Below are positions 3,174 to 43,220 of a stretch of 50,471 bases of DNA, piece after piece. The DNA is from an uncultured Helicobacteraceae bacterium (GTDB lineage Bacteria > Campylobacterota > Campylobacteria > Campylobacterales > Helicobacteraceae). The notes beneath the pieces are model-generated. The model was not told where the DNA came from, did not search any database, and worked only from the letters and a program-made list of their open reading frames with translations. The translations under genes and the position numbers were made by a program. The stretch covers positions 1 through 50,471 of the forward strand of contig CAMWQM010000014.1 in NCBI GenBank assembly GCA_947176375.1, written 5' to 3'. How positions within the stretch are numbered: the stretch's first letter is position 1; the number at the start of each line of letters is the position of its first letter.

Positions 3174-4361
3174 TTATTTTCCCTTATGTGCTTGAATCTT
3201 AGAAATATATTTATATTGTATTTTGATGTTTTTAACTTTTGGGATATTTGTTGCTAATTTATTTAAAATCGCATTTATATCATCAAATAAATAGTGAGCC
3301 ATTGAGCCTGGAATCGGATTAATCTCATTTAAATATACTTCATTTTCAATCACAAAAAAATCGCAACGAATGAGTGAACCTTCAAAACAATTTAGATAGA
3401 TTTTTTTAAAAGATTCTTTAATTTTATTTTTGAGTTCTTCACTAATATTTGCTTCTTTCTTTTTTACCTTATTTGTGGAAGATTCGTTATGAGATTGCAA
3501 GAATTGAGTGGAATCTTGTGTAAGATTTTTAAATTGATTTTTAATTAAATCTTTAGAATCAGAGGGAGTTTTAGTTTGATTTTTAGAATCTAATTCTAAA
3601 TTTCTTGCTCCAAAATCAAGATATTTTTTCTCAAAATCCAAATATTCACCTTTGTTAACCTCCTCGATGATAGAAAATTTAAATTCATTATCTATTAAAG
3701 CCCCTGCAAGATTGTATTCTTTAATATTTGGGATAAAAGATTCAATAATAATTGTATCATCAAATTCAAGTGCAGAATCTAGCGCATAAGCAATCTCATT
3801 TTCATTTTTTGCGATAGAGATTCCAATAGAGCTTCCAAGTCTAGCTGGTTTGAAAATAAGCGGTAGTTTTGAGGCAAGATGGTTTATTAAATTTGGCTCT
3901 ATTTTAGTAGTATTTTGCAAAGCTTCATAATTTAGTACATTTACGCCTCTATATTTAGCATAAACCTTACCATATTCTTTATTAAAGCTAACTACACAAG
4001 CCTCATTCCTAGGACCAATAAATTTAATATCATAAAAATTAAATATAGAAGCAAGCATTCCATCTTCGCCCATTTTTCCATGCACAAGGTTAATCACAAT
4101 GCCCCGTATCACTTCACTTTTTAAGAAACCTTTTTTTAAAAAACCACTAGGACAAAACTCTATTTTAGAATCCTTTTTATAAGCAAAAGTGCTAAAGTGC
4201 TTTGAAGTCATCTTATTGTTTGGGATTAAATAAAGTGAATTTATAGAATCTAAAAATATAAAATGAGAAATATTTTTTAACTCTTTTTTTAGAGTAATCG
4301 CACTCACTATGCTAACTTCGTGTTCATAAGAATTCCCACCAAATAAAATAATAAATTGCAT
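3174..4361 (-). CDS. ddl: D-alanine--D-alanine ligase
   Basis: Ddl joins two D-alanines with ATP to supply the substrate of MurF. Family landmarks are GGNSYEHEVS near the N-terminus, the ATP-grasp segment KPARLGSSIGIS near 171-182, and NEINPIPGS at about 345-353 with metal-binding Glu/Asn. At 395 residues it is about 45-50 longer than I expect for Helicobacter Ddl. The excess is a low-complexity D/S/K/N/Q-rich insertion at about residues 253-305, after KKYLDFGARN, in the region of the flexible omega-loop. The DNA of this insertion (about 3470-3600) contains four GAWTC motifs. AAAGGGG stands seven bases before the ATG. It is in a minus-strand operon with the hydrolase and murF downstream and glycosyltransferases upstream. 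Confidence 0.95.
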   Translation of the reverse strand: MQFIILFGGNSYEHEVSIVSAITLKKELKNISHFIFLDSINSLYLIPNNKMTSKHFSTFAYKKDSKIEFCPSGFLKKGFLKSEVIRGIVINLVHGKMGEDGMLASIFNFYDIKFIGPRNEACVVSFNKEYGKVYAKYRGVNVLNYEALQNTTKIEPNLINHLASKLPLIFKPARLGSSIGISIAKNENEIAYALDSALEFDDTIIIESFIPNIKEYNLAGALIDNEFKFSIIEEVNKGEYLDFEKKYLDFGARNLELDSKNQTKTPSDSKDLIKNQFKNLTQDSTQFLQSHNESSTNKVKKKEANISEELKNKIKESFKKIYLNCFEGSLIRCDFFVIENEVYLNEINPIPGSMAHYLFDDINAILNKLATNIPKVKNIKIQYKYISKIQAHKGK

Positions 4362-4381: not shown

Positions 4382-6445
4382 TTAAGATTCTAGCACATTA
4401 TTATATAAATTTAAGATTCCCTCAATCATTTTATCTAAAGTAAAATGTTCTAAATATCTATTATAGGCATTTTGGGCGTAGTAGTTATAATTTTGCTCAA
4501 TTTTTGCTACTGCTTGTGCTAGAGCTTTTGGATTTTTTGGTTCTACTACGATACCACTAAATTCATTTTGATTTATAAAATCAACTCCAGATGGCTTAAG
4601 TTTTGTGCAAATTATGGGCTTTTTAAAACTCATTGCTTCAATAAGAACAATCCCATAAGATTCTTGAATAGATGGGAGTGCAAAAATATGGCAATTTGCA
4701 TAATAATTTTTTAATAAACTTCTCTCCATTTGCCCACTTAAGCGAACTTTTTGCTTTAAATTATTTGTTTTTATAAGAGAGAGGTATTCTTTCTTTAATG
4801 CTTCATTTCCGCCTCCACCAATGACAATCATATATTCATCACTTAAATATTTTGCACTTTGTATTAAATATTCAAATCCTTTATTTTTGGCAAATCGTCC
4901 AAGTGAAAAAATGATTTTTTTATCTTTTGGAAATATATTATTTGCAACTTCCTTGCTATTAAAAAAGGCATCTTGGTTAAAGCCTATGGGAATGGCTACG
5001 CATTTATTTTTATATTTTGGCAAAAAACTGGATTCTTCAATGTATTTTGTTGAGGTTACAATGATTTTATCTGCTATATTTAAAAGCTTATTTTGTAGTG
5101 GTAAATAGAGCTTTAGTAGATTTTTTTGCTTGATGATATCTGAATGCCAATGCAAAATGATTTTTTTATTTTTATAATTTGATAATAAAAGTGCAAGATT
5201 TGCCATAGGGTCGGGTAAGTGAATATGAATTATCTCATAATCTTTAATAATTTTTATTAATTTAAAAATCATTTGCGGAGCAATCGAGGTTGAAGCTAGC
5301 CTCCCAAAAGACGCACATCGCATAATTTTTGCACCATTAATCAAATCTTGTTTATATTCTAGCTTTGAGTTTGAGCAGAGCACATCACAAATTATTCCCT
5401 TTTTATTTAAAGAAACTGTAATATCTTCCATTACGCTTTCAATCCCACCAATATCAGGTGGATAAAATTTGCCTAGTTGCAAAATTCTCATTTCTTTTTT
5501 ATTTAGAATCTCTAAAATTTGAGGATATGCTTTTATCACAGCATTAAGCTGCTTATCATTACCAGAAATTAGATTTTCATACCATAGAGATTGTCCATAA
5601 GGCGAGTTTGTCATCGCATTTCCATTTGCCATTGAATTATTTTTAACAACGCCAATTTTACTTCCATTTAGTACCGCCATAGCCCAAAGCCAAATATCAT
5701 CAGCCTTTGGGGATAAAGAGAGGAATTTATCTCTATTTAGCACATTTTTATGCAGTGAATTAGGAGGGTATAAAACGCCACCCACACCCTCTAAAAATAG
5801 GCTAAATTGTGGAAAATTTTGCAAAGAACTATTATTTTTTTTTACTAATTTCCAAGTTGAAAAACTCTCAATCTTAGTGTTAGAATATTTAAGCACTCTT
5901 GCCCTCTGACACCAAATCGTTTTTTTATTGTTTAAATGTGCTTCATATAAATTTTTTAGCAAATTTTGTGGGTAGAACATATCATCATCGATGGTTATTA
6001 TCACTTCATCTTTGTAGTGCTCTAAAATCGGGATAATTTTATTATACTGCCTTAAATCCTCATCACTCCACAGAATCTTAAGCCCAAATTTATTTAAATT
6101 TAAAATTTCTTGCGGTATCTCAAAATTTTCAAACTCTTTTTTACTCAGACATAGCACAATTTCCTTTGGACGCAGATTTTGAATAATAATAGAATATAAT
6201 GTATATTTTAAGATTCCAATTCTTGCAGGAAATGTTGTAAGTGAGACTATAAAATCACCAATATTGCTGTTTTTTACAGCCTCATTATTCTCTAAAGATT
6301 CTAGTTTTATATTTGCTAATTCTCTGCCATCTAGCTCATAATCTCTACCAAGAAGTCGCAAAATCTTATTTTTTAAAGTGGGATTTGTAAAAATTTTATT
6401 AAATATGGATTTTAAAAAAAGCTTTATTTTTAGTTTTAGATTCAT
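4382..6445 (-). CDS. Bifunctional glycosyltransferase: GT-A-like domain fused to GT4 domain
   Basis: A 687-residue protein with two glycosyltransferase domains. Residues about 60-310 form a GT-A-like module with VSLTTFPARI (67-76), a metal-binding DDD motif (153-155, in TIDDDMFY) and KADDIWLW (247-254). From Met319 a GT-B module of the GT4 type begins (ILQLGKFYPPDIGGIE), with SLGRFAKNKG near 515 and the donor-site E-x7-E at Glu595 and Glu603. The two halves are normally separate proteins. The frame is continuous and no Shine-Dalgarno precedes Met319, so this looks like a true fusion. The N-terminus has basic/hydrophobic helices suggesting membrane association. An A9 run on the coding strand (5835-5843) lies within the first domain. 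Position next to a GT2 gene and GDP-fucose synthase suggests surface glycan assembly. Sugar specificity is unknown. Confidence 0.85.
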   Translation of the reverse strand: MNLKLKIKLFLKSIFNKIFTNPTLKNKILRLLGRDYELDGRELANIKLESLENNEAVKNSNIGDFIVSLTTFPARIGILKYTLYSIIIQNLRPKEIVLCLSKKEFENFEIPQEILNLNKFGLKILWSDEDLRQYNKIIPILEHYKDEVIITIDDDMFYPQNLLKNLYEAHLNNKKTIWCQRARVLKYSNTKIESFSTWKLVKKNNSSLQNFPQFSLFLEGVGGVLYPPNSLHKNVLNRDKFLSLSPKADDIWLWAMAVLNGSKIGVVKNNSMANGNAMTNSPYGQSLWYENLISGNDKQLNAVIKAYPQILEILNKKEMRILQLGKFYPPDIGGIESVMEDITVSLNKKGIICDVLCSNSKLEYKQDLINGAKIMRCASFGRLASTSIAPQMIFKLIKIIKDYEIIHIHLPDPMANLALLLSNYKNKKIILHWHSDIIKQKNLLKLYLPLQNKLLNIADKIIVTSTKYIEESSFLPKYKNKCVAIPIGFNQDAFFNSKEVANNIFPKDKKIIFSLGRFAKNKGFEYLIQSAKYLSDEYMIVIGGGGNEALKKEYLSLIKTNNLKQKVRLSGQMERSLLKNYYANCHIFALPSIQESYGIVLIEAMSFKKPIICTKLKPSGVDFINQNEFSGIVVEPKNPKALAQAVAKIEQNYNYYAQNAYNRYLEHFTLDKMIEGILNLYNNVLES

Positions 6446-6457
6446 ATTCTTTAAACC

Positions 6458-7423
6458 TTATAATTTTTTCGTGCCAAAAGTTAGGATAAAAATCATTAAT
6501 TTTACTGCTATTTGCCACCTTGCCATAAATTTAAACGACATAATGCTATATGTAAAATAAGGCGAGATTGTTGTATTTAAATCATTTTTTGTAAGGAATC
6601 TTTTAGAATAGCAAATGAAATAATCTAGCATATTTTGCATATTTTTTTTAGCTTGATGGAAATATTCGTGGCTTGATAAATCTTTGTTTTGTGAAAGGTA
6701 ATCTAGAGCATTTTTTAGATAAGTTCTGTCATCTATTTGCTTTAATAATCTCTCTTTATTTATTGAGCGCATAATTGAGCCATCATTTTGGCAATAAATA
6801 TAGAAGTTTTTTTCCACACCAACACTTTTTTTAGCAAGCAAACAAATTACGAAAAACAAAATGCTATCTTCGCTTGAGATTAAATGCCTATCTATGAAAG
6901 CTAGTTGTTTTATTGCATTTTTTACTAAAGCTGTTTTAAATAGCTTTGCACAGACGATAAACCACGATTTTTTAAAATCTTTTATAATGATTTTATTTGT
7001 GATTTCTTCACCTAGAATCTCCTCTGTGTGAATCTTTGGTAAAGTTGCATTTTTTATAATTGGTTTATTTATAATGCCAAAATTCACCATATCTGCACTT
7101 TTGCTAACTGCTATATTGTATAGAATTTCCAAACTTTCATTTTCTAAATAATCATCGCCATCTAAAAAAATTATATATTCTCCATTTGCAATTTTTATCC
7201 CCTCATTGCGTGATAGAAAAGTGCCTAGATTCTCTTTATTTTTAATTATTTTTATTCGCTCATCTTTGTAGCTTTCTATTATTTTTAGGCTAGAATCTGT
7301 GCTTTTATCATCAATTATTATTATTTCAATATCACTTAAGCTTTGTTTTAGGCAGGATTCTATGCTATTTTTTAGAAAATCTTGCGTATTAAAGACAGGG
7401 AGAATAACTGAAATTTTTGGCAT
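6458..7423 (-). CDS. GT2 family glycosyltransferase
   Basis: A 321-residue inverting family 2 glycosyltransferase. It opens with PKISVILPVFNTQDFL (residues 2-17), followed by EIIIIDDKSTDSS and the donor/metal motif FLDGDDYLE (about 86-94), all diagnostic of the GT-A fold. A conserved ED pair occurs near residue 187 in ISSEDSILF. The C-terminal third is helical and basic without clear membrane helices. It is the first gene of the minus-strand run, 12 bases upstream of the bifunctional glycosyltransferase. A TATAAT -10 lies at 7458-7463, 35 bases upstream. A role in lipopolysaccharide O-chain or other surface glycan synthesis is inferred from neighbours; donor and acceptor cannot be deduced. 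Confidence 0.88.
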   Translation of the reverse strand: MPKISVILPVFNTQDFLKNSIESCLKQSLSDIEIIIIDDKSTDSSLKIIESYKDERIKIIKNKENLGTFLSRNEGIKIANGEYIIFLDGDDYLENESLEILYNIAVSKSADMVNFGIINKPIIKNATLPKIHTEEILGEEITNKIIIKDFKKSWFIVCAKLFKTALVKNAIKQLAFIDRHLISSEDSILFFVICLLAKKSVGVEKNFYIYCQNDGSIMRSINKERLLKQIDDRTYLKNALDYLSQNKDLSSHEYFHQAKKNMQNMLDYFICYSKRFLTKNDLNTTISPYFTYSIMSFKFMARWQIAVKLMIFILTFGTKKL

Positions 7424-7457
7424 TTTGCCTCTTTAGTAAAAATAAAAATAAAACGCA

Positions 7458-7463
7458 ATTATA
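7458..7463 (-). promoter_or_regulatory. -10 box for the glycosyltransferase/ddl/murF run
   Basis: TATAAT on the minus strand, 35 bases before the GT2 start, in the divergent gap facing fcl. It could drive the whole minus-strand run down to murF, since intergenic gaps there are 8-20 bases or overlaps. Confidence 0.5.
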
Positions 7464-7526
7464 GGCAATTAATTTTAATAAAGTGTTAATTTGCTTACTT
7501 AATTTGCAATTTTAAAGCAATAAGCA

Positions 7527-7532
7527 TATAAT
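7527..7532 (+). promoter_or_regulatory. -10 box upstream of fcl
   Basis: TATAAT on the plus strand, 53 bases before the fcl GTG start. The upstream DNA is AT-rich with no recognisable -35. Confidence 0.45.
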
Positions 7533-7585
7533 TTACAAAACTAAAATAATCATTTTTAATAAAAATTTATAAAAAAGGAAAGTTT

Positions 7586-8635
7586 GTGAATTTGGATTCA
7601 AATATTTTTGTGGCAGGACATAATGGATTGGTGGGTAGTGCGATTGTTGGTGAGTTGCAAAGAAATGGATATAAAAATTTAATTCTTAAATCAAAAGATG
7701 AGTTGGATTTGATGGATTTTAGTAAGGTAGAAAGCTTTTTTAAAAATAATAATATTGAATACATTTTTTTGGCTGCCGCTAAAGTTGGTGGAATTATGGC
7801 AAATAACACTTATAGAGCTGATTTTATTTATGAAAATTTAGCAATACAAAATAATATTATCCATAATGCTTTTAGATTCAAGGTTAAAAAACTGCTTTTT
7901 CTCGGCTCAAGCTGTATTTATCCAAAGTTTGCTACCCAACCACTAACAGAATCTTCTTTATTAAATGGAGAATTAGAATATACAAATGAACCATATGCTA
8001 TCGCAAAAATTGCTGGGCTTAAAATGTGTGAATCTTATTCTTTGCAATATGGTTGTAACTTCATTTCTGTAATGCCTACGAATCTTTATGGAAATAATGA
8101 TAATTTTGATTTATTTAACTCCCATGTTTTGCCCGCATTAATTAGAAAAATCTATCTTGCAAAATGCCTTGAAGATGATGATTTGGAATCTATTAAGGCA
8201 GATTTGGGAGAGAATTATAAAGAAATTTTGAGAGATTTTAAGATTTCTAAAAATAGCCTTGAAGTATGGGGTAGCGGGAATGTTAGAAGAGAATTTTTAC
8301 ACTCAAACGATTTGGCTAGGGCTTGTGTGTATATAATGCAAAATATTGATTTTAAGGATTTGGCAAAAGGGGCAAATGGAGGTGAAATCCGCAATACGCA
8401 TATAAATATAGGTAGTGGAAAGGACATAAGCATAAGAGAGTTGGCTTATTTGATTAAGGAGATAGTTGGCTTTAGCGGGGAGATTATATTTGATTTAAGC
8501 AAACCAGATGGAACGCCACAAAAACTGCTAGATATTAAAAAATTACAAAATCTTGGTTTTAGTCCCCAAATTAGCTTAAAAGATGGCATAAAAATGGTAT
8601 TTGAAAATTACAAACTAAAGGCTAAAAATAGCTAG
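7586..8635 (+). CDS. fcl: GDP-L-fucose synthase (GDP-4-keto-6-deoxymannose 3,5-epimerase/reductase)
   Basis: This short-chain dehydrogenase-type enzyme converts GDP-4-keto-6-deoxy-D-mannose to GDP-L-fucose with NADPH. The 349-residue protein shows the N-terminal Rossmann motif GHNGLVGSA (residues about 11-19), [10 protein letters not shown] with the catalytic Ser region, YAIAKIAG with the catalytic Tyr-x3-Lys, and NLYG plus [11 protein letters not shown] near the substrate site. The start is GTG with AAGGAA seven bases upstream. Gmd, which makes its substrate, is not in this window. The gene diverges from two glycosyltransferase genes and is followed by a strong hairpin at 8808-8843. GDP-fucose in Helicobacter feeds fucosylated LPS antigens; that use is inferred here. 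Confidence 0.95.
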
Positions 8636-21838: not shown

Positions 21839-23165
21839 TACTATCGTAGCTATTTCAACTCCTATTGGTGTTAGTGCTATTAGCATAGTTAGGCTTTGTG
21901 GTTATGATTCGCTAAATATTGCAAAAAGACTACTAAAAGTATCAACCTTAAAGCCTCGTTATGCGTATTTAAAATATATTTATGATTCTAATAATAATGT
22001 GATTGATAGAGGAATTGTCATTTATTTTAAGGCTCCAAATAGTTTTAATGGCGAGGATATTATTGAATTTCAAATTCACGGCGGAATACTAGTATCAAAG
22101 GCTATAGTAAATGAGTGTTTAAACTATGGAGCTAGACTTGCAAATGCAGGTGAGTTTAGCAAAATTGCCCTGTTGAATGGAAAGTTAAATTTAGCAGAAA
22201 TAGAAAATATAGCCAAATTAATAAGTGCTCAAAGTTTGCAAGCCTTGCAAATTATCGCTAGAAATTTGAAGGGCGGTTTAGCTAATTTTATAAATGATTT
22301 AAGACTAAATTTGCTTGAGATTTTATCTAGTATTGAAGCTTTAATTGACTATGCAGAGGAGGACTTACCTAGTAACCTTGAAGAATCTATACAAAAAAAG
22401 TTACTTTTAGCCATAGATAAACTAGATTCTATTTATCAACATTCTTTAAGTTTGCAAAATGTGATAGATGGACACAAGCTAGCAATAATTGGTAAACCAA
22501 ATGTAGGTAAAAGTTCAATTCTTAATAAACTTCTGCTAAAAGATAGAGCTATCGTTTCAGATATTGCAGGCACTACAAGGGATGTAATTGAAGATAGCAT
22601 TACAATTAATAATCAAATTATAAAGATTGTAGATACAGCTGGAATCCACAATACCAATGAACAAATAGAAAAAATAGGTATAGAAAAAAGTCTAGAAGCT
22701 TTAAGCGAATCTAGTATTATTTTGGCTGTATTTGATGGAAGTAGAGATTTTGATGATGATGAGATTGTAGATTTATTGCTTCAAAATATGGATAAAATTA
22801 TTATCGTAGCGATAAATAAAAGCGATAAATTGCAGATTCTAAATACAGATAAATTAAGCAATTTTGAGTGTGTTTCCGTCTCTATCCTTGATAATAGTGT
22901 CTTTAAAATAAGAGATATTATCGCAGAAAAAATTACAATCAATGCTCTAAATAATGAAAGCATAGTTTTAAGCACAAAAAGACAGCTTGAATGTATAGAA
23001 TCTTGTATAGGTGCGCTAAAAGAAGCTAAAGATAAATTAAGCGATTTTGAGATTTTTGGCTTTCATATAAATGAGGCTTTGAGGGCGCTTGATTTGCTCT
23101 CAAAACCTTTTAGCAATGAAGAAATATTAGATAAAATGTTTTCTACTTTTTGCCTTGGAAAGTAG
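21822..23165 (+). CDS. mnmE: tRNA modification GTPase MnmE
   Basis: MnmE with MnmG modifies U34 of certain tRNAs (cmnm5U). The 447-residue protein has the N-terminal folate-binding domain (about 1-115, with FNGEDIIEFQIHGG), a helical domain, and an inserted G domain with GKPNVGKSS, the G2/G3 stretch AGTTRDV and DTAGIH, and NKSD. It ends in the family's obligatory CLGK with the conserved Cys. Full length. It overlaps jag by 17 bases and is the last gene of the operon. Confidence 0.97.
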   Translation: MRALTDTIVAISTPIGVSAISIVRLCGYDSLNIAKRLLKVSTLKPRYAYLKYIYDSNNNVIDRGIVIYFKAPNSFNGEDIIEFQIHGGILVSKAIVNECLNYGARLANAGEFSKIALLNGKLNLAEIENIAKLISAQSLQALQIIARNLKGGLANFINDLRLNLLEILSSIEALIDYAEEDLPSNLEESIQKKLLLAIDKLDSIYQHSLSLQNVIDGHKLAIIGKPNVGKSSILNKLLLKDRAIVSDIAGTTRDVIEDSITINNQIIKIVDTAGIHNTNEQIEKIGIEKSLEALSESSIILAVFDGSRDFDDDEIVDLLLQNMDKIIIVAINKSDKLQILNTDKLSNFECVSVSILDNSVFKIRDIIAEKITINALNNESIVLSTKRQLECIESCIGALKEAKDKLSDFEIFGFHINEALRALDLLSKPFSNEEILDKMFSTFCLGK

Positions 23166-23213
23166 TTTTTAAAGAATTAATTGTCTAAAAAATATGACTA
23201 ATTTGTTTTGAGT

Positions 23214-23219
23214 ATAATT
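23214..23219 (+). promoter_or_regulatory. -10 box in the mnmE-lysE gap
   Basis: TATAAT about 100 bases before the LysE-type gene, leaving a long AT-rich leader. I see no riboswitch-like structure in that leader. Confidence 0.4.
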
Positions 23220-23320
23220 TTGATATTTTTTAAAAGATAAATTTAAAATAAAAGCAAATAATCTGTGTTAAACATTATAAAACTATTGATTTAGGAAAAT
23301 CAAAATGGAGTAAAAAATTA

Positions 23321-23950
23321 GTGGAATATTTATTAAAAGGCTTTTTGATTGCATTTTCACTTTTTGCAGCCATTGGGGCGCAAAATATATTTGTTATTAA
23401 ACAAGGAATTATTAAAAATCATATTTTTTGGGTTTGTTTTACCTGTATAATGTGTGATATTATCTTTGTTAGTATTGGAATCTTTGGCGTGGCGCAAGTT
23501 TTATCAAACAATAAAATTATTTCGATAATGCTTGGAATTTTTGGGGCTATTTTTATTAGCTATTATGCGCTAAATTCGCTAAAATCTGCAATTAATGCAA
23601 AAGAAAGCCTAAATATTGTGCAAAATAGCAAGAAAAATTCATTAAAAAAGACAATCACCCAAACCCTCTTAATCACATTGTTAAATCCTCATGTATATTT
23701 AGATACGATAATCATACTAGGGGCTATCGCCCTACCACTAGATTTAGGTGAGAAAATTGCTTTTGAGATTGGCATAATATTTGCGTCTTGCTCTTGGTTT
23801 TTGTGTATAGGATATGCGTCAAACAAAGCTCATATGTTGTTTAAAAATCCAAAAACTTGGGCTATTTTTAATGCGATAAGTTCTTTGATTATGTTTTATA
23901 TTGCTTTTGAATTAGCTTTATTTAGCTTAAAAGCTTTATTTCAACTCTAA
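23321..23950 (+). CDS. LysE/ArgO family amino-acid exporter
   Basis: A 209-residue membrane protein of the LysE family with about six helices. The signature SLFAAIGAQNIFVIKQG (residues about 14-30) is characteristic of LysE/ArgO exporters of basic amino acids, and LLNPHVYLDTI in the middle is the conserved Asn-Pro segment. The start is GTG 23321, about eleven bases after GGAG. A nine-base ATG-GAG-TAA mini-frame lies just before it. A 12-bp hairpin follows the gene. Confidence 0.9.
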   Translation: MEYLLKGFLIAFSLFAAIGAQNIFVIKQGIIKNHIFWVCFTCIMCDIIFVSIGIFGVAQVLSNNKIISIMLGIFGAIFISYYALNSLKSAINAKESLNIVQNSKKNSLKKTITQTLLITLLNPHVYLDTIIILGAIALPLDLGEKIAFEIGIIFASCSWFLCIGYASNKAHMLFKNPKTWAIFNAISSLIMFYIAFELALFSLKALFQL

Positions 23951-23956
23951 ATTTGG

Positions 23957-24008
23957 AATCTAGTTTAATAATAAAATAGAGCTACAAATAGCATTTAAAC
24001 TAGATTTT
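23957..24008 (+). terminator. Hairpin after the LysE-type gene
   Basis: AATCTAGTTTAA (23957-23968) pairs perfectly with TTAAACTAGATT (23995-24006) over a 26-base loop, starting seven bases after the stop codon and ending in a short T-run. A plausible but AT-rich terminator. Confidence 0.5.
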
Positions 24009-24069
24009 GCCTTTGTGTAATTTTTAAATAATTTATTAATTTAAATAAAAATAGCATTTCTAAAAAATA

Positions 24070-24078
24070 TGCTATAAT
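24070..24078 (+). promoter_or_regulatory. Extended -10 of tRNA-Leu
   Basis: TGCTATAAT, an extended -10, lies 31 bases before the mature tRNA 5' end. The -10 overlaps the right arm of a 7-bp inverted repeat, ATAGCAT (24051-24057) with ATGCTAT (24069-24075). Confidence 0.6.
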
Positions 24079-24108
24079 CACAAACTTCTTTATAAAATTC
24101 TTTAAAAA

Positions 24109-24195
24109 GCCGTGGTGGTGAAACTGGTAGACGCGCTAGACTCAAAATCTAGTAGGGGCAACCCTGTGTCGGTTCGAGTCCGACCCTCGGCACCA
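24109..24195 (+). tRNA. tRNA-Leu (anticodon CAA)
   Basis: An 87-base class II tRNA with encoded CCA. The anticodon stem CTAGA/TCTAG encloses loop CTCAAAA, giving CAA, which reads UUG leucine. The variable arm is the long AGGGGCAACCCT type, and the T-arm is GTCGG-TTCGAGT-CCGAC. The acceptor GCCGTGG faces CCTCGGC, leaving one U-U mismatch at pair 5-68. Confidence 0.96.
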
Positions 24196-24640
24196 CAAAG
24201 ATTCTAAATTATACAATCACTTTCAATATTTCTTGTGATATTTTTTGTTTGTTAGATTTTTAAATATTTTAGTTTAAATCAATAATTCCAAATGTTTAGA
24301 ATCTAAAATAGATTACCTCTTTATTCAATAATTTTTAGATTCCATTTTAGACTTTAAGATTCTGCAAATAAGATTCCATAAGTAAAATTTCACAAAATAT
24401 GGCAATACATTTTTAAATCACACCAATGTTGGAATTTACTTTTTAGCAACCAAAAAGCTGTAATTGGGATTCTCAGCATTAGAATCTATAATTCAAAATA
24501 TTTTCAAATAAGCATTTTTAGACTATGATTAATTTATTTGTATATTTTCTTAAATATTTTTTAATCAATGTTACTAAATTAATCAACTTTATTTTATAAT
24601 TTCGCATTCACAACTTAATAAAATATATAAAAGGTGGTAA
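24196..24640. other. Gene-free stretch between tRNA-Leu and prs
   Basis: No protein-like frame and no RNA gene that I recognise. The stretch contains about seven GAWTC motifs in 445 bases. Its right end carries the prs promoter region. Confidence 0.6.
24595..24600 (+). promoter_or_regulatory. -10 box of prs
   Basis: TATAAT 40 bases upstream of the prs ATG, with an AT-rich upstream region and no clear -35. Confidence 0.5.
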
Positions 24641-25570
24641 ATGAGAGGCTTTAAAATATTTACAGGCACAGCAAATCCTAGTTTCACAAAAGAGTTAGCA
24701 AAATATTTAGATGTAGTTATTTCAAAGGCAAGTGTAAATCGTTTTAGCGATGGAGAAATAAATGTTCAAATAAGCGAAAGTGTTAGGGGGAAAGATATTT
24801 ATATTATTCAACCAGTTTGTGCTCCTACTAATGATAATTTAATGGAGCTTTTAATTATGGTTGATGCTTTTAGGCGAAGTTCTGCTTCTAATATAAATGC
24901 AATTATTCCATACTTTGGCTACGCAAGACAGGATAGAAAAGCGGCTCCACGAGTGCCGATTACTGCAAAATTGGTGGCAAATCTTATGCAAACAGCAGGG
25001 ATTAATAGAGTTATTACTATGGATTTGCACGCAGGGCAGATTCAAGGCTTTTTTGATATTCCTGTGGATAATTTATATGGTTCAATCGTATTTTACGATT
25101 ATATAAAATCTAAAAATTTGCCAGATCCTATCATTGCTTCTCCAGATATTGGCGGCGTAGCTCGTGCTAGGCAGTTTGCCTCTAAACTTAATTATGGGCT
25201 AATTATTGTTGATAAAAAACGAGAGAGGGCAAATGAAAGTGAAGTGATGAATATTATCGGTGATGTGAAAAATAAAAGTGTAATTTTAATAGATGATATT
25301 ATAGATACCGCAGGGACAATCTGCAAAGCTGCTGAAGTGTTAAAGAAAAATGGTGCAATTAGTGTTATAGCACTAGGAACTCATGCAGTTTTTAGCGGTA
25401 AGGCGATTGAGCGGATAGAAAATAGCGTGATTGATGAGATAGTTGTAACAAACTCAATTCCTTTTGAAAATAGATCAAGTAAAATCAAAGTTTTAAGCGT
25501 AGCCCCGCTATTTGCAGAGGTTATTAGACGAATCTATCATAATGAGAGCGTAAATTCCCTCTTTTTATAA
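24641..25570 (+). CDS. prs: Ribose-phosphate pyrophosphokinase
   Basis: Makes PRPP from ribose 5-phosphate and ATP, feeding nucleotide, histidine and tryptophan synthesis. The 309-residue protein is full length: FTGTANPSF at the N-terminus, the flexible-loop region GYARQDRK, DLHAGQIQGFF, and the PRPP-binding DDIIDTAGTI (about 219-228). AAGGTGG lies before the ATG. In H. pylori, as I recall, prs is beside the HIT/murF genes; here it is a single gene flanked by a gene-free stretch and rpsU. Confidence 0.97.
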   Translation: MRGFKIFTGTANPSFTKELAKYLDVVISKASVNRFSDGEINVQISESVRGKDIYIIQPVCAPTNDNLMELLIMVDAFRRSSASNINAIIPYFGYARQDRKAAPRVPITAKLVANLMQTAGINRVITMDLHAGQIQGFFDIPVDNLYGSIVFYDYIKSKNLPDPIIASPDIGGVARARQFASKLNYGLIIVDKKRERANESEVMNIIGDVKNKSVILIDDIIDTAGTICKAAEVLKKNGAISVIALGTHAVFSGKAIERIENSVIDEIVVTNSIPFENRSSKIKVLSVAPLFAEVIRRIYHNESVNSLFL

Positions 25571-25856
25571 TTTTTCTATTGTGAGAGTTTAATAATTTTA
25601 GAAATTAATTTACAGACTGATAATATTTAATTTGAGATTCTAAATCTAGATTCAAATATTTTTTATAAATAATTTATATTCTTCATTGCTTTGATATTTT
25701 ATTATGGTTAAAAATATAAAATAATATAAGTTCTATTTATTTAATTTTAAGGATAGAGGCAAATATTCTTATTAAATATCTAAATTTATCTTATATTTTA
25801 GTTTTTTTTGTTAGTATTTTAGCTTTTAATTTAAAAAGAGAGGTGGTGATGCTATA

Positions 25857-26069
25857 ATGCCTGGTATTAAAATACGAGAAAATGAAAGCTTTGATGAGGC
25901 TTACAGAAGATTTAAAAAACAAGCTGATAGAAATTTGGTTGTTACTGAAAGCAGAGCTAGGAGATTTTTTGAATCTAAAACTGAAAAACGCAAAAAGCAA
26001 AAAATTAATGCTAAAAAGAAAATGTTAAAAAGATTGTATGTTTTAAGAAGATATGAATCTAAACTATAA
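25857..26069 (+). CDS. rpsU: 30S ribosomal protein S21
   Basis: A 70-residue basic S21: [20 protein letters not shown] with a [12 protein letters not shown] tail. AGGTGG lies upstream; an ATG-CTA-TAA mini-frame overlaps the spacer. It begins the rpsU-fabG-acpP-fabF-accA block conserved in Helicobacter. Confidence 0.95.

Positions 26070-34565: not shown

Positions 34566-43220
<8,655 letters not shown>

Follow-up and report, generated by a model that had tools for sequence, protein, structure and literature searches.

A gene of an uncultured Helicobacteraceae bacterium joins a GT-A glycosyltransferase module to a GT4 module in one uninterrupted frame, while three relatives of the same genus encode the two halves as two overlapping genes. 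We consider it likely that two translationally coupled genes became fused specifically in this lineage and that the product is a bifunctional enzyme catalyzing two steps of surface-glycan synthesis. The gene lies in the window, that is, the whole stretch of DNA that was analyzed (50,471 nt), which is an entire contig (C14) of a draft genome of 1.80 Mb with a stated completeness of 99.99%. The original prediction had located the gene correctly without stating its strand, which is minus, and had described two complete glycosyltransferase modules of different folds in a single frame. The 687-aa open frame, the Pfam matches, the alignment, the models and the identity of each half to its relatives all bear that description out.

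Two catalytic modules in one polypeptide

The four motifs by which the modules had been recognized are intact and were located at residues 151-158 (TIDDDMFY), 247-256 (KADDIWLWAM), 514-523 (SLGRFAKNKG) and 595-603 (E-x7-E). The coordinates of the gene, its modules and its neighbors are collected in Table 1.

Table 1. Coordinates in the window of the fused gene, its parts and the neighboring genes.
Feature	Position	Strand	Evidence or remark
Fused glycosyltransferase gene, GT-A module then GT4 module	4382..6445	-	687 aa, one uninterrupted frame, ATG to stop
N-terminal GT-A module, residues 1-318	5492..6445	-	Alignment, model, structural matches
TIDDDMFY, putative metal/nucleotide-sugar site of the GT-A module	5972..5995	-	Alignment and motif position
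Junction EILNKKE/MRIL	5480..5512	-	12-nt spacer from the end of ILEIL to ATG, A6 run, no clear Shine-Dalgarno site
C-terminal GT4 module (GT-B fold), residues 319-687, stop included	4382..5491	-	Pfam, structural matches, gene start in relatives
ESYGIVLIE, E-x7-E motif of the GT4 module	4637..4663	-	Motif position
GT2 family glycosyltransferase gene, upstream in the same gene row	6458..7423	-	Pfam
D-alanine--D-alanine ligase gene (ddl), next downstream	3174..4361	-	NCBIfam 319 bits, cut-off 310
EstV-family lipase gene, downstream		-	NCBIfam 324 bits, cut-off 300
murF, downstream		-	Pfam Mur ligase domain; NCBIfam murF 150 bits, below cut-off of 289
GDP-L-fucose synthase gene (fcl)	7586..8635	+	NCBIfam 440 bits, below cut-off of 500, by far the best match

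The GT-A half of the window protein (P0002) was aligned with 24 of the 30 GT-A loci (alignment A2); left out were L032, which has a stop codon in the stretch used, and L025, L038, L041, L043 and L045, which are near-duplicates by eye. D153-D155, D249, D250 and W252-M256 are invariant in all 25 sequences. The Pfam model Glycos_transf_2 scored 22.8 bits on this half, just below its cut-off of 23.3; some of its GT-A relatives pass the cut-off narrowly (for example L020 with 23.9 and L073 with 24.2 bits). The A2 profile matched KfiA at an E value of 3.5e-7 over about 110 of its 275 positions, compared with only 0.03 when the single fusion sequence was used instead; heparosan synthase reached only 0.32 with the profile.

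Modeled alone, the GT-A half gave a pLDDT of 90.3 and a pTM of 0.90. Its top listed structural match is heparosan synthase 2 (Z 18.6, 237 residues aligned, rmsd 3.4), and the listed matches comprise heparosan synthase (Z 17.7-18.6), EXTL2 (15.9-16.4), KfiA (16.4) and exostosins (15.0-15.7), followed by the cellulose synthase BcsA (14.9) and hyaluronan synthase (14.6), the margin being clear for the first rows only. The half thus has the GT-A fold common to the KfiA- and EXTL2-like alpha-HexNAc transferases, which rank above the other GT-A enzymes listed. With heparosan synthase 2, EXTL2 and KfiA leading the listed matches, alpha-HexNAc transfer is the most likely activity of the GT-A half, as judged from the fold of the model. 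We take the KfiA class to be GT45-like and the EXTL2 class to be GT64-like in CAZy numbering.

The C-terminal half is a GT4 enzyme as predicted from its Pfam domains, its E-x7-E motif and its GT-B fold matches. Glycos_transf_1 matched residues 501-661 at 6e-35 (120.7 bits, cut-off 26.4) and Glyco_transf_4 matched residues 332-471 at 8e-13, above its cut-off. The E-x7-E motif is a hallmark of GT4. Foldseek matches to BshA, PimA, MshA and PglA, obtained with a model whose N-lobe is of low confidence, place this half in the GT-B fold. In the AlphaFold model of the whole fusion (mean pLDDT 75, pTM 0.51) the N-lobe of the GT4 module is poor because few GT4 rows were supplied.

Heparosan synthase 2 of Pasteurella multocida, which we take to hold two glycosyltransferase sites in one protein, is a partial counterpart of the fusion. 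The matched domain (PDB 8viw and 8vh7, whose titles name a GlcNAc-T site) is C-terminal in that enzyme, whereas the related module of the fusion is N-terminal and its partner is a GT4 enzyme of GT-B fold. KfiA of E. coli K5 (PDB 5z8b) and EXTL2 (1on8) share the GT-A fold and the DDD region with the GT-A half, but their chains (204-262 residues) were matched as single domains, unlike the two-module fusion.

The split state in relatives and the distribution of the fusion

Our genus sample consisted of five genomes, the window genome included, and besides the latter the locus is present in Helicobacter sp. 16-1353 (G001), G002 and the MAG BRZ_QM bin61 (G004). In these three, GT-A and GT4 are two genes with a 4-nt overlap, reading TTGA in G001 (L016), ATGA in G002 (L006) and GTGA in G004 (L017), and the two-gene layout around residue 318 is therefore the state of the relatives, while the window sequence reads as one frame. 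Met319 aligns with the start codon of their separate GT4 gene and reads ATG in the fusion; the sharp boundary proposed at this residue is thus exactly where the GT4 gene of the three relatives begins. The single-domain homologues for which a search had been suggested exist as separate neighboring genes in the same three genomes, which supports the fusion claim and makes the origin of the fusion clearer. The sole match in the fifth genome (G003, 56% complete) was a weak GT4 one in the genus search, with no GT4-half match at E 1e-40 and no GT-A-half match at E 1e-10.

The order GT2, GT-A, GT4, ddl is identical in the three relatives, with the GT2 gene directly upstream of the GT-A gene in each of them. 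Lipase, murF and HIT genes follow ddl in 16-1353 and BRZ_QM bin61, and the stretch examined in G002 ends in ddl. These two relatives thus carry the counterparts of both halves in the order of the fusion and differ from it in having two genes, the 4-nt overlap and a ribosome-binding site. Counted from the conserved ILEIL codons to the GT4 start, the spacer measures 12 nt in the window, against 23 in G002 and 29 in G004; the GT-A protein of G001 has a long low-complexity tail in place of the short spacer, as well as a low-complexity insert, unlike the fusion. Shine-Dalgarno energies ahead of the GT4 start are -0.5 kcal/mol for the fusion and -10.7, -10.1 and -3.8 for G001, G002 and G004, respectively.

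The GT-A half is 62-64% and the GT4 half 68% identical to the separate proteins of the relatives. Flanking genes show similar values: 55-61% for GT2 and, against two relatives only, 61-63% for ddl, 59-68% for the lipase and 62-66% for murF. Since both halves keep 62-68% identity to separate proteins, the fused frame is not due to chance, and since they are conserved like their neighbors, neither half looks relaxed or decayed. Horizontal import of a ready-made fusion is disfavored, as gene order and neighbors match those of the relatives and the conservation of both halves equals that of the genes around them.

A second GT-A + GT4 fusion was not found in 121 genomes of the family or in 398 genomes sampled evenly from the order, for most of which, among those listed, only two candidates were scored. 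Matches at E 1e-25 occurred in 22 of the 398 order genomes, the window genome alone covering residues 1-687. Within the family, the GT4 half was matched in 22 genomes at E 1e-40 and the GT-A half in 42 at E 1e-10; 20 of the 22 genomes with a GT4 half also have a GT-A match, but the two adjoin only in the window genome, G001, G002 and G004, the nearest pair elsewhere being ~5 kb apart (G092). BLAST with the GT4 half among the collected loci recovered no further fusion of this kind, and no GT4 partner appeared in the long GT-A frames (450 aa or more) that were scanned with Pfam (L018, L019, L020, L022, L040, L042, L043, L073, L080, L112, L113 and L114) or judged by eye from their sequence (L075, L079 and L082). 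A literature search listed no paper on this fusion or its locus.

Related GT-A modules are joined to other partners: GT2 in H. aurati (L019), H. muridarum (L022) and two Gastranaerophilales MAGs, GT8 in a Verrucomicrobia MAG, and, in Methanosphaera, a repeat-rich stretch that resembles a coiled coil. A 1173-aa frame of G092 (contig C44; L112, 1446-4964, minus strand) has a GT-A relative at residues 358-634 between two GT2 stretches, and this protein apparently holds three glycosyltransferase modules. Like the window fusion, the proteins of L019, L022 and L112 join a related GT-A module to glycosyltransferases, but the partner is GT2 rather than GT4 and identity to the window GT-A half is 33-37%. 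Among members from family genomes, L073 and L080 bear a C-terminal methyltransferase-like domain (Pfam matches mostly below cut-offs), and L079 and L082 bear one by eye. The GT-A module is therefore prone to fusion, and a further case comes as less of a surprise. The genus itself offers another event, since Wzy_C-like and GT4 relatives that are separate, adjacent frames in G002 (contig C4; L010/L108) form one ~947-aa frame in G001 (contig C30, about 22145-25867; L012/L109).

Fusion or sequence error at the junction

A one-base sequencing or assembly error in the A6 run of the junction could hide a true genome with two overlapping genes, an explanation that we judge unlikely. A one-base change in the length of this run would indeed give the overlapping layout of the relatives; moreover, all three relatives keep two genes, the fusion is present in one genome only and that genome is a draft assembly of 37 contigs. 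Against an error, the frames of 35 other genes of the contig (a set chosen from the window frames, several with unconfirmed starts) are intact although they contain 143 A/T runs of at least 6, so that run-length errors look rare on this contig. Nor would a one-base error explain a spacer 11-17 nt shorter than in two relatives together with the missing Shine-Dalgarno site, both of which fit a real fusion. The lost site is only suggestive as evidence, as weak starts are not rare: of the other window starts that were scored (n = 27), 4 have a weaker site than -0.5 kcal/mol, and the GT-A start of G002 also stands at -0.5. At four-base overlaps in the window plus 107 kb of its own genome (n = 12), the energy is -3 or lower in 8 and above -1 kcal/mol in 2. 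The single broken gene seen on the contig (10540-11550) carries several lesions, in-frame stops among them, and looks more like decay than read error.

This broken gene, on the plus strand, is the remains of a SLAC1-type membrane protein gene with several stops and changes of frame. It has a C9T8 run close to 10790, and one of its pieces matches a Pfam family below cut-off.

Programmed frameshifting at the A run was considered, as A runs can be slippery, but we do not adopt it as the principal explanation: in the window genome the zero frame already yields the fused protein, and no frameshift is needed. Phase variation at the junction is not supported either, the run being only A6 and short compared with the C9T8 run elsewhere in the window. 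We regard it as very improbable that the GT4 module is also made alone by internal initiation at Met319, with both forms in the cell. While Met319 is an ATG at precisely the position of the relatives' GT4 start, it is preceded by no clear Shine-Dalgarno site (-0.5 kcal/mol), and in the fused gene there is no terminating ribosome at this site that could re-initiate.

Gene neighborhood and proposed function

The neighbors agree with the original prediction, which had named a GT2 gene alongside, ddl and murF in the same row (both downstream) and a GDP-L-fucose synthase gene on the opposite strand. A Gmd above its family cut-off is encoded on another contig of the window genome (G000:C15) and, together with the Fcl relative in the window, makes it probable from sequence matches that this genome is able to make GDP-fucose. 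A GT4 relative adjoins a gmd-looking gene (by eye) in three genomes of another genus (L065-L067), a weak hint that the GT4 enzyme may use a GDP-sugar donor. The window genome encodes an STT3/PglB-like protein; no match to Wzy_C (O-antigen ligase) was found in it, compared with one or two in each of G001, G002 and G004. Lipopolysaccharide and a lipid-linked oligosaccharide are both candidates for the glycan built by the three glycosyltransferases.

Some further features of the region were observed. Between fcl and the GT2 gene, G001 (L016, 2132-4847) and G004 (L017, 2303-5016) hold several genes, two of which look by eye like those of a response regulator and a histidine kinase; the corresponding interval of the window (7424-7585) is without these genes. 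Low-complexity D/S/K-rich insertions occur in the window ddl (3174-4361, minus strand) and in the GT-A protein of Helicobacter sp. 16-1353 (L016, 5980-7299) and were not seen in the other relatives compared. Elsewhere in the window, rpoB and rpoC form one 2883-aa frame (34569-43220, plus strand), and a joined rpoB-rpoC frame is a Helicobacter trait. Together with the nearest named relatives, Helicobacter sp. 16-1353 and an uncultured Helicobacteraceae MAG, this frame assigns the window genome to Helicobacter, broadly defined.

Under the explanation that we prefer, the ancestor would have had the arrangement kept in the three relatives, with GT-A and GT4 genes overlapping by 4 nt and presumably translated as a coupled pair. 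A small change in spacer length would then have removed the frame difference, and the stop and the ribosome-binding site of GT4 would have gone. One ribosome would now make one 687-aa protein in which two active sites are joined by about four residues (NKKE). The GT-A module, which resembles KfiA, EXTL2 and the GlcNAc-T of heparosan synthase, would add an alpha-linked HexNAc, as its fold and neighbors suggest; the GT4 module would add another sugar, and the GT2 neighbor may be a third enzyme acting on the same surface glycan. In this scheme we infer the coupling, the activities, the sugars, the order of addition and any gain from fusion. That the fused protein adds two sugars in sequence, as originally proposed, is plausible by analogy, given the intact motifs and the known two-module glycosyltransferases. 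There is only a small chance that it works on its own as a two-sugar polymerase or as a disaccharide-adding enzyme, which would make it an analogue of heparosan synthase composed of a KfiA-like GT-A and a GT4 module and recently arisen from coupled genes.

Precedents exist for the union of such modules. The O-antigen polymerases WbdA, WbbM and WbbB hold several glycosyltransferase modules per polypeptide for one glycan, like the fusion, although they are other enzymes that belong to ABC-transporter pathways and some have a coiled-coil ruler (PMC11231755). The same source describes polymerase modules that are found in one or several polypeptides and that can interact when they are on separate ones (PMC11231755). 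When two genes overlap by four nucleotides their translation is coupled, and partners in complexes are overrepresented among such pairs (PMC10666635). Because of these precedents, the fusion of such a gene pair is an expected kind of event. They also favor a variant that is compatible with our preferred explanation and to which we give an even chance, namely that the fusion is real but a neutral accident of little effect, the two enzymes having already been side by side as coupled products; the Wzy_C-like + GT4 fusion within the genus likewise suggests that such events recur.

In all likelihood, therefore, two genes fused recently in a fairly ordinary event, and no new enzyme class is revealed; glycosyltransferases with several modules are a familiar type. 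If real, the fusion is a clean natural example of an overlapping gene pair turned into a single bifunctional protein, for which the three sister species with split genes provide controls, and it hints that the GT-A and GT4 enzymes act on the same glycan. Should the fused protein indeed be a two-sugar enzyme, its fused and split forms would be directly comparable between sister species.
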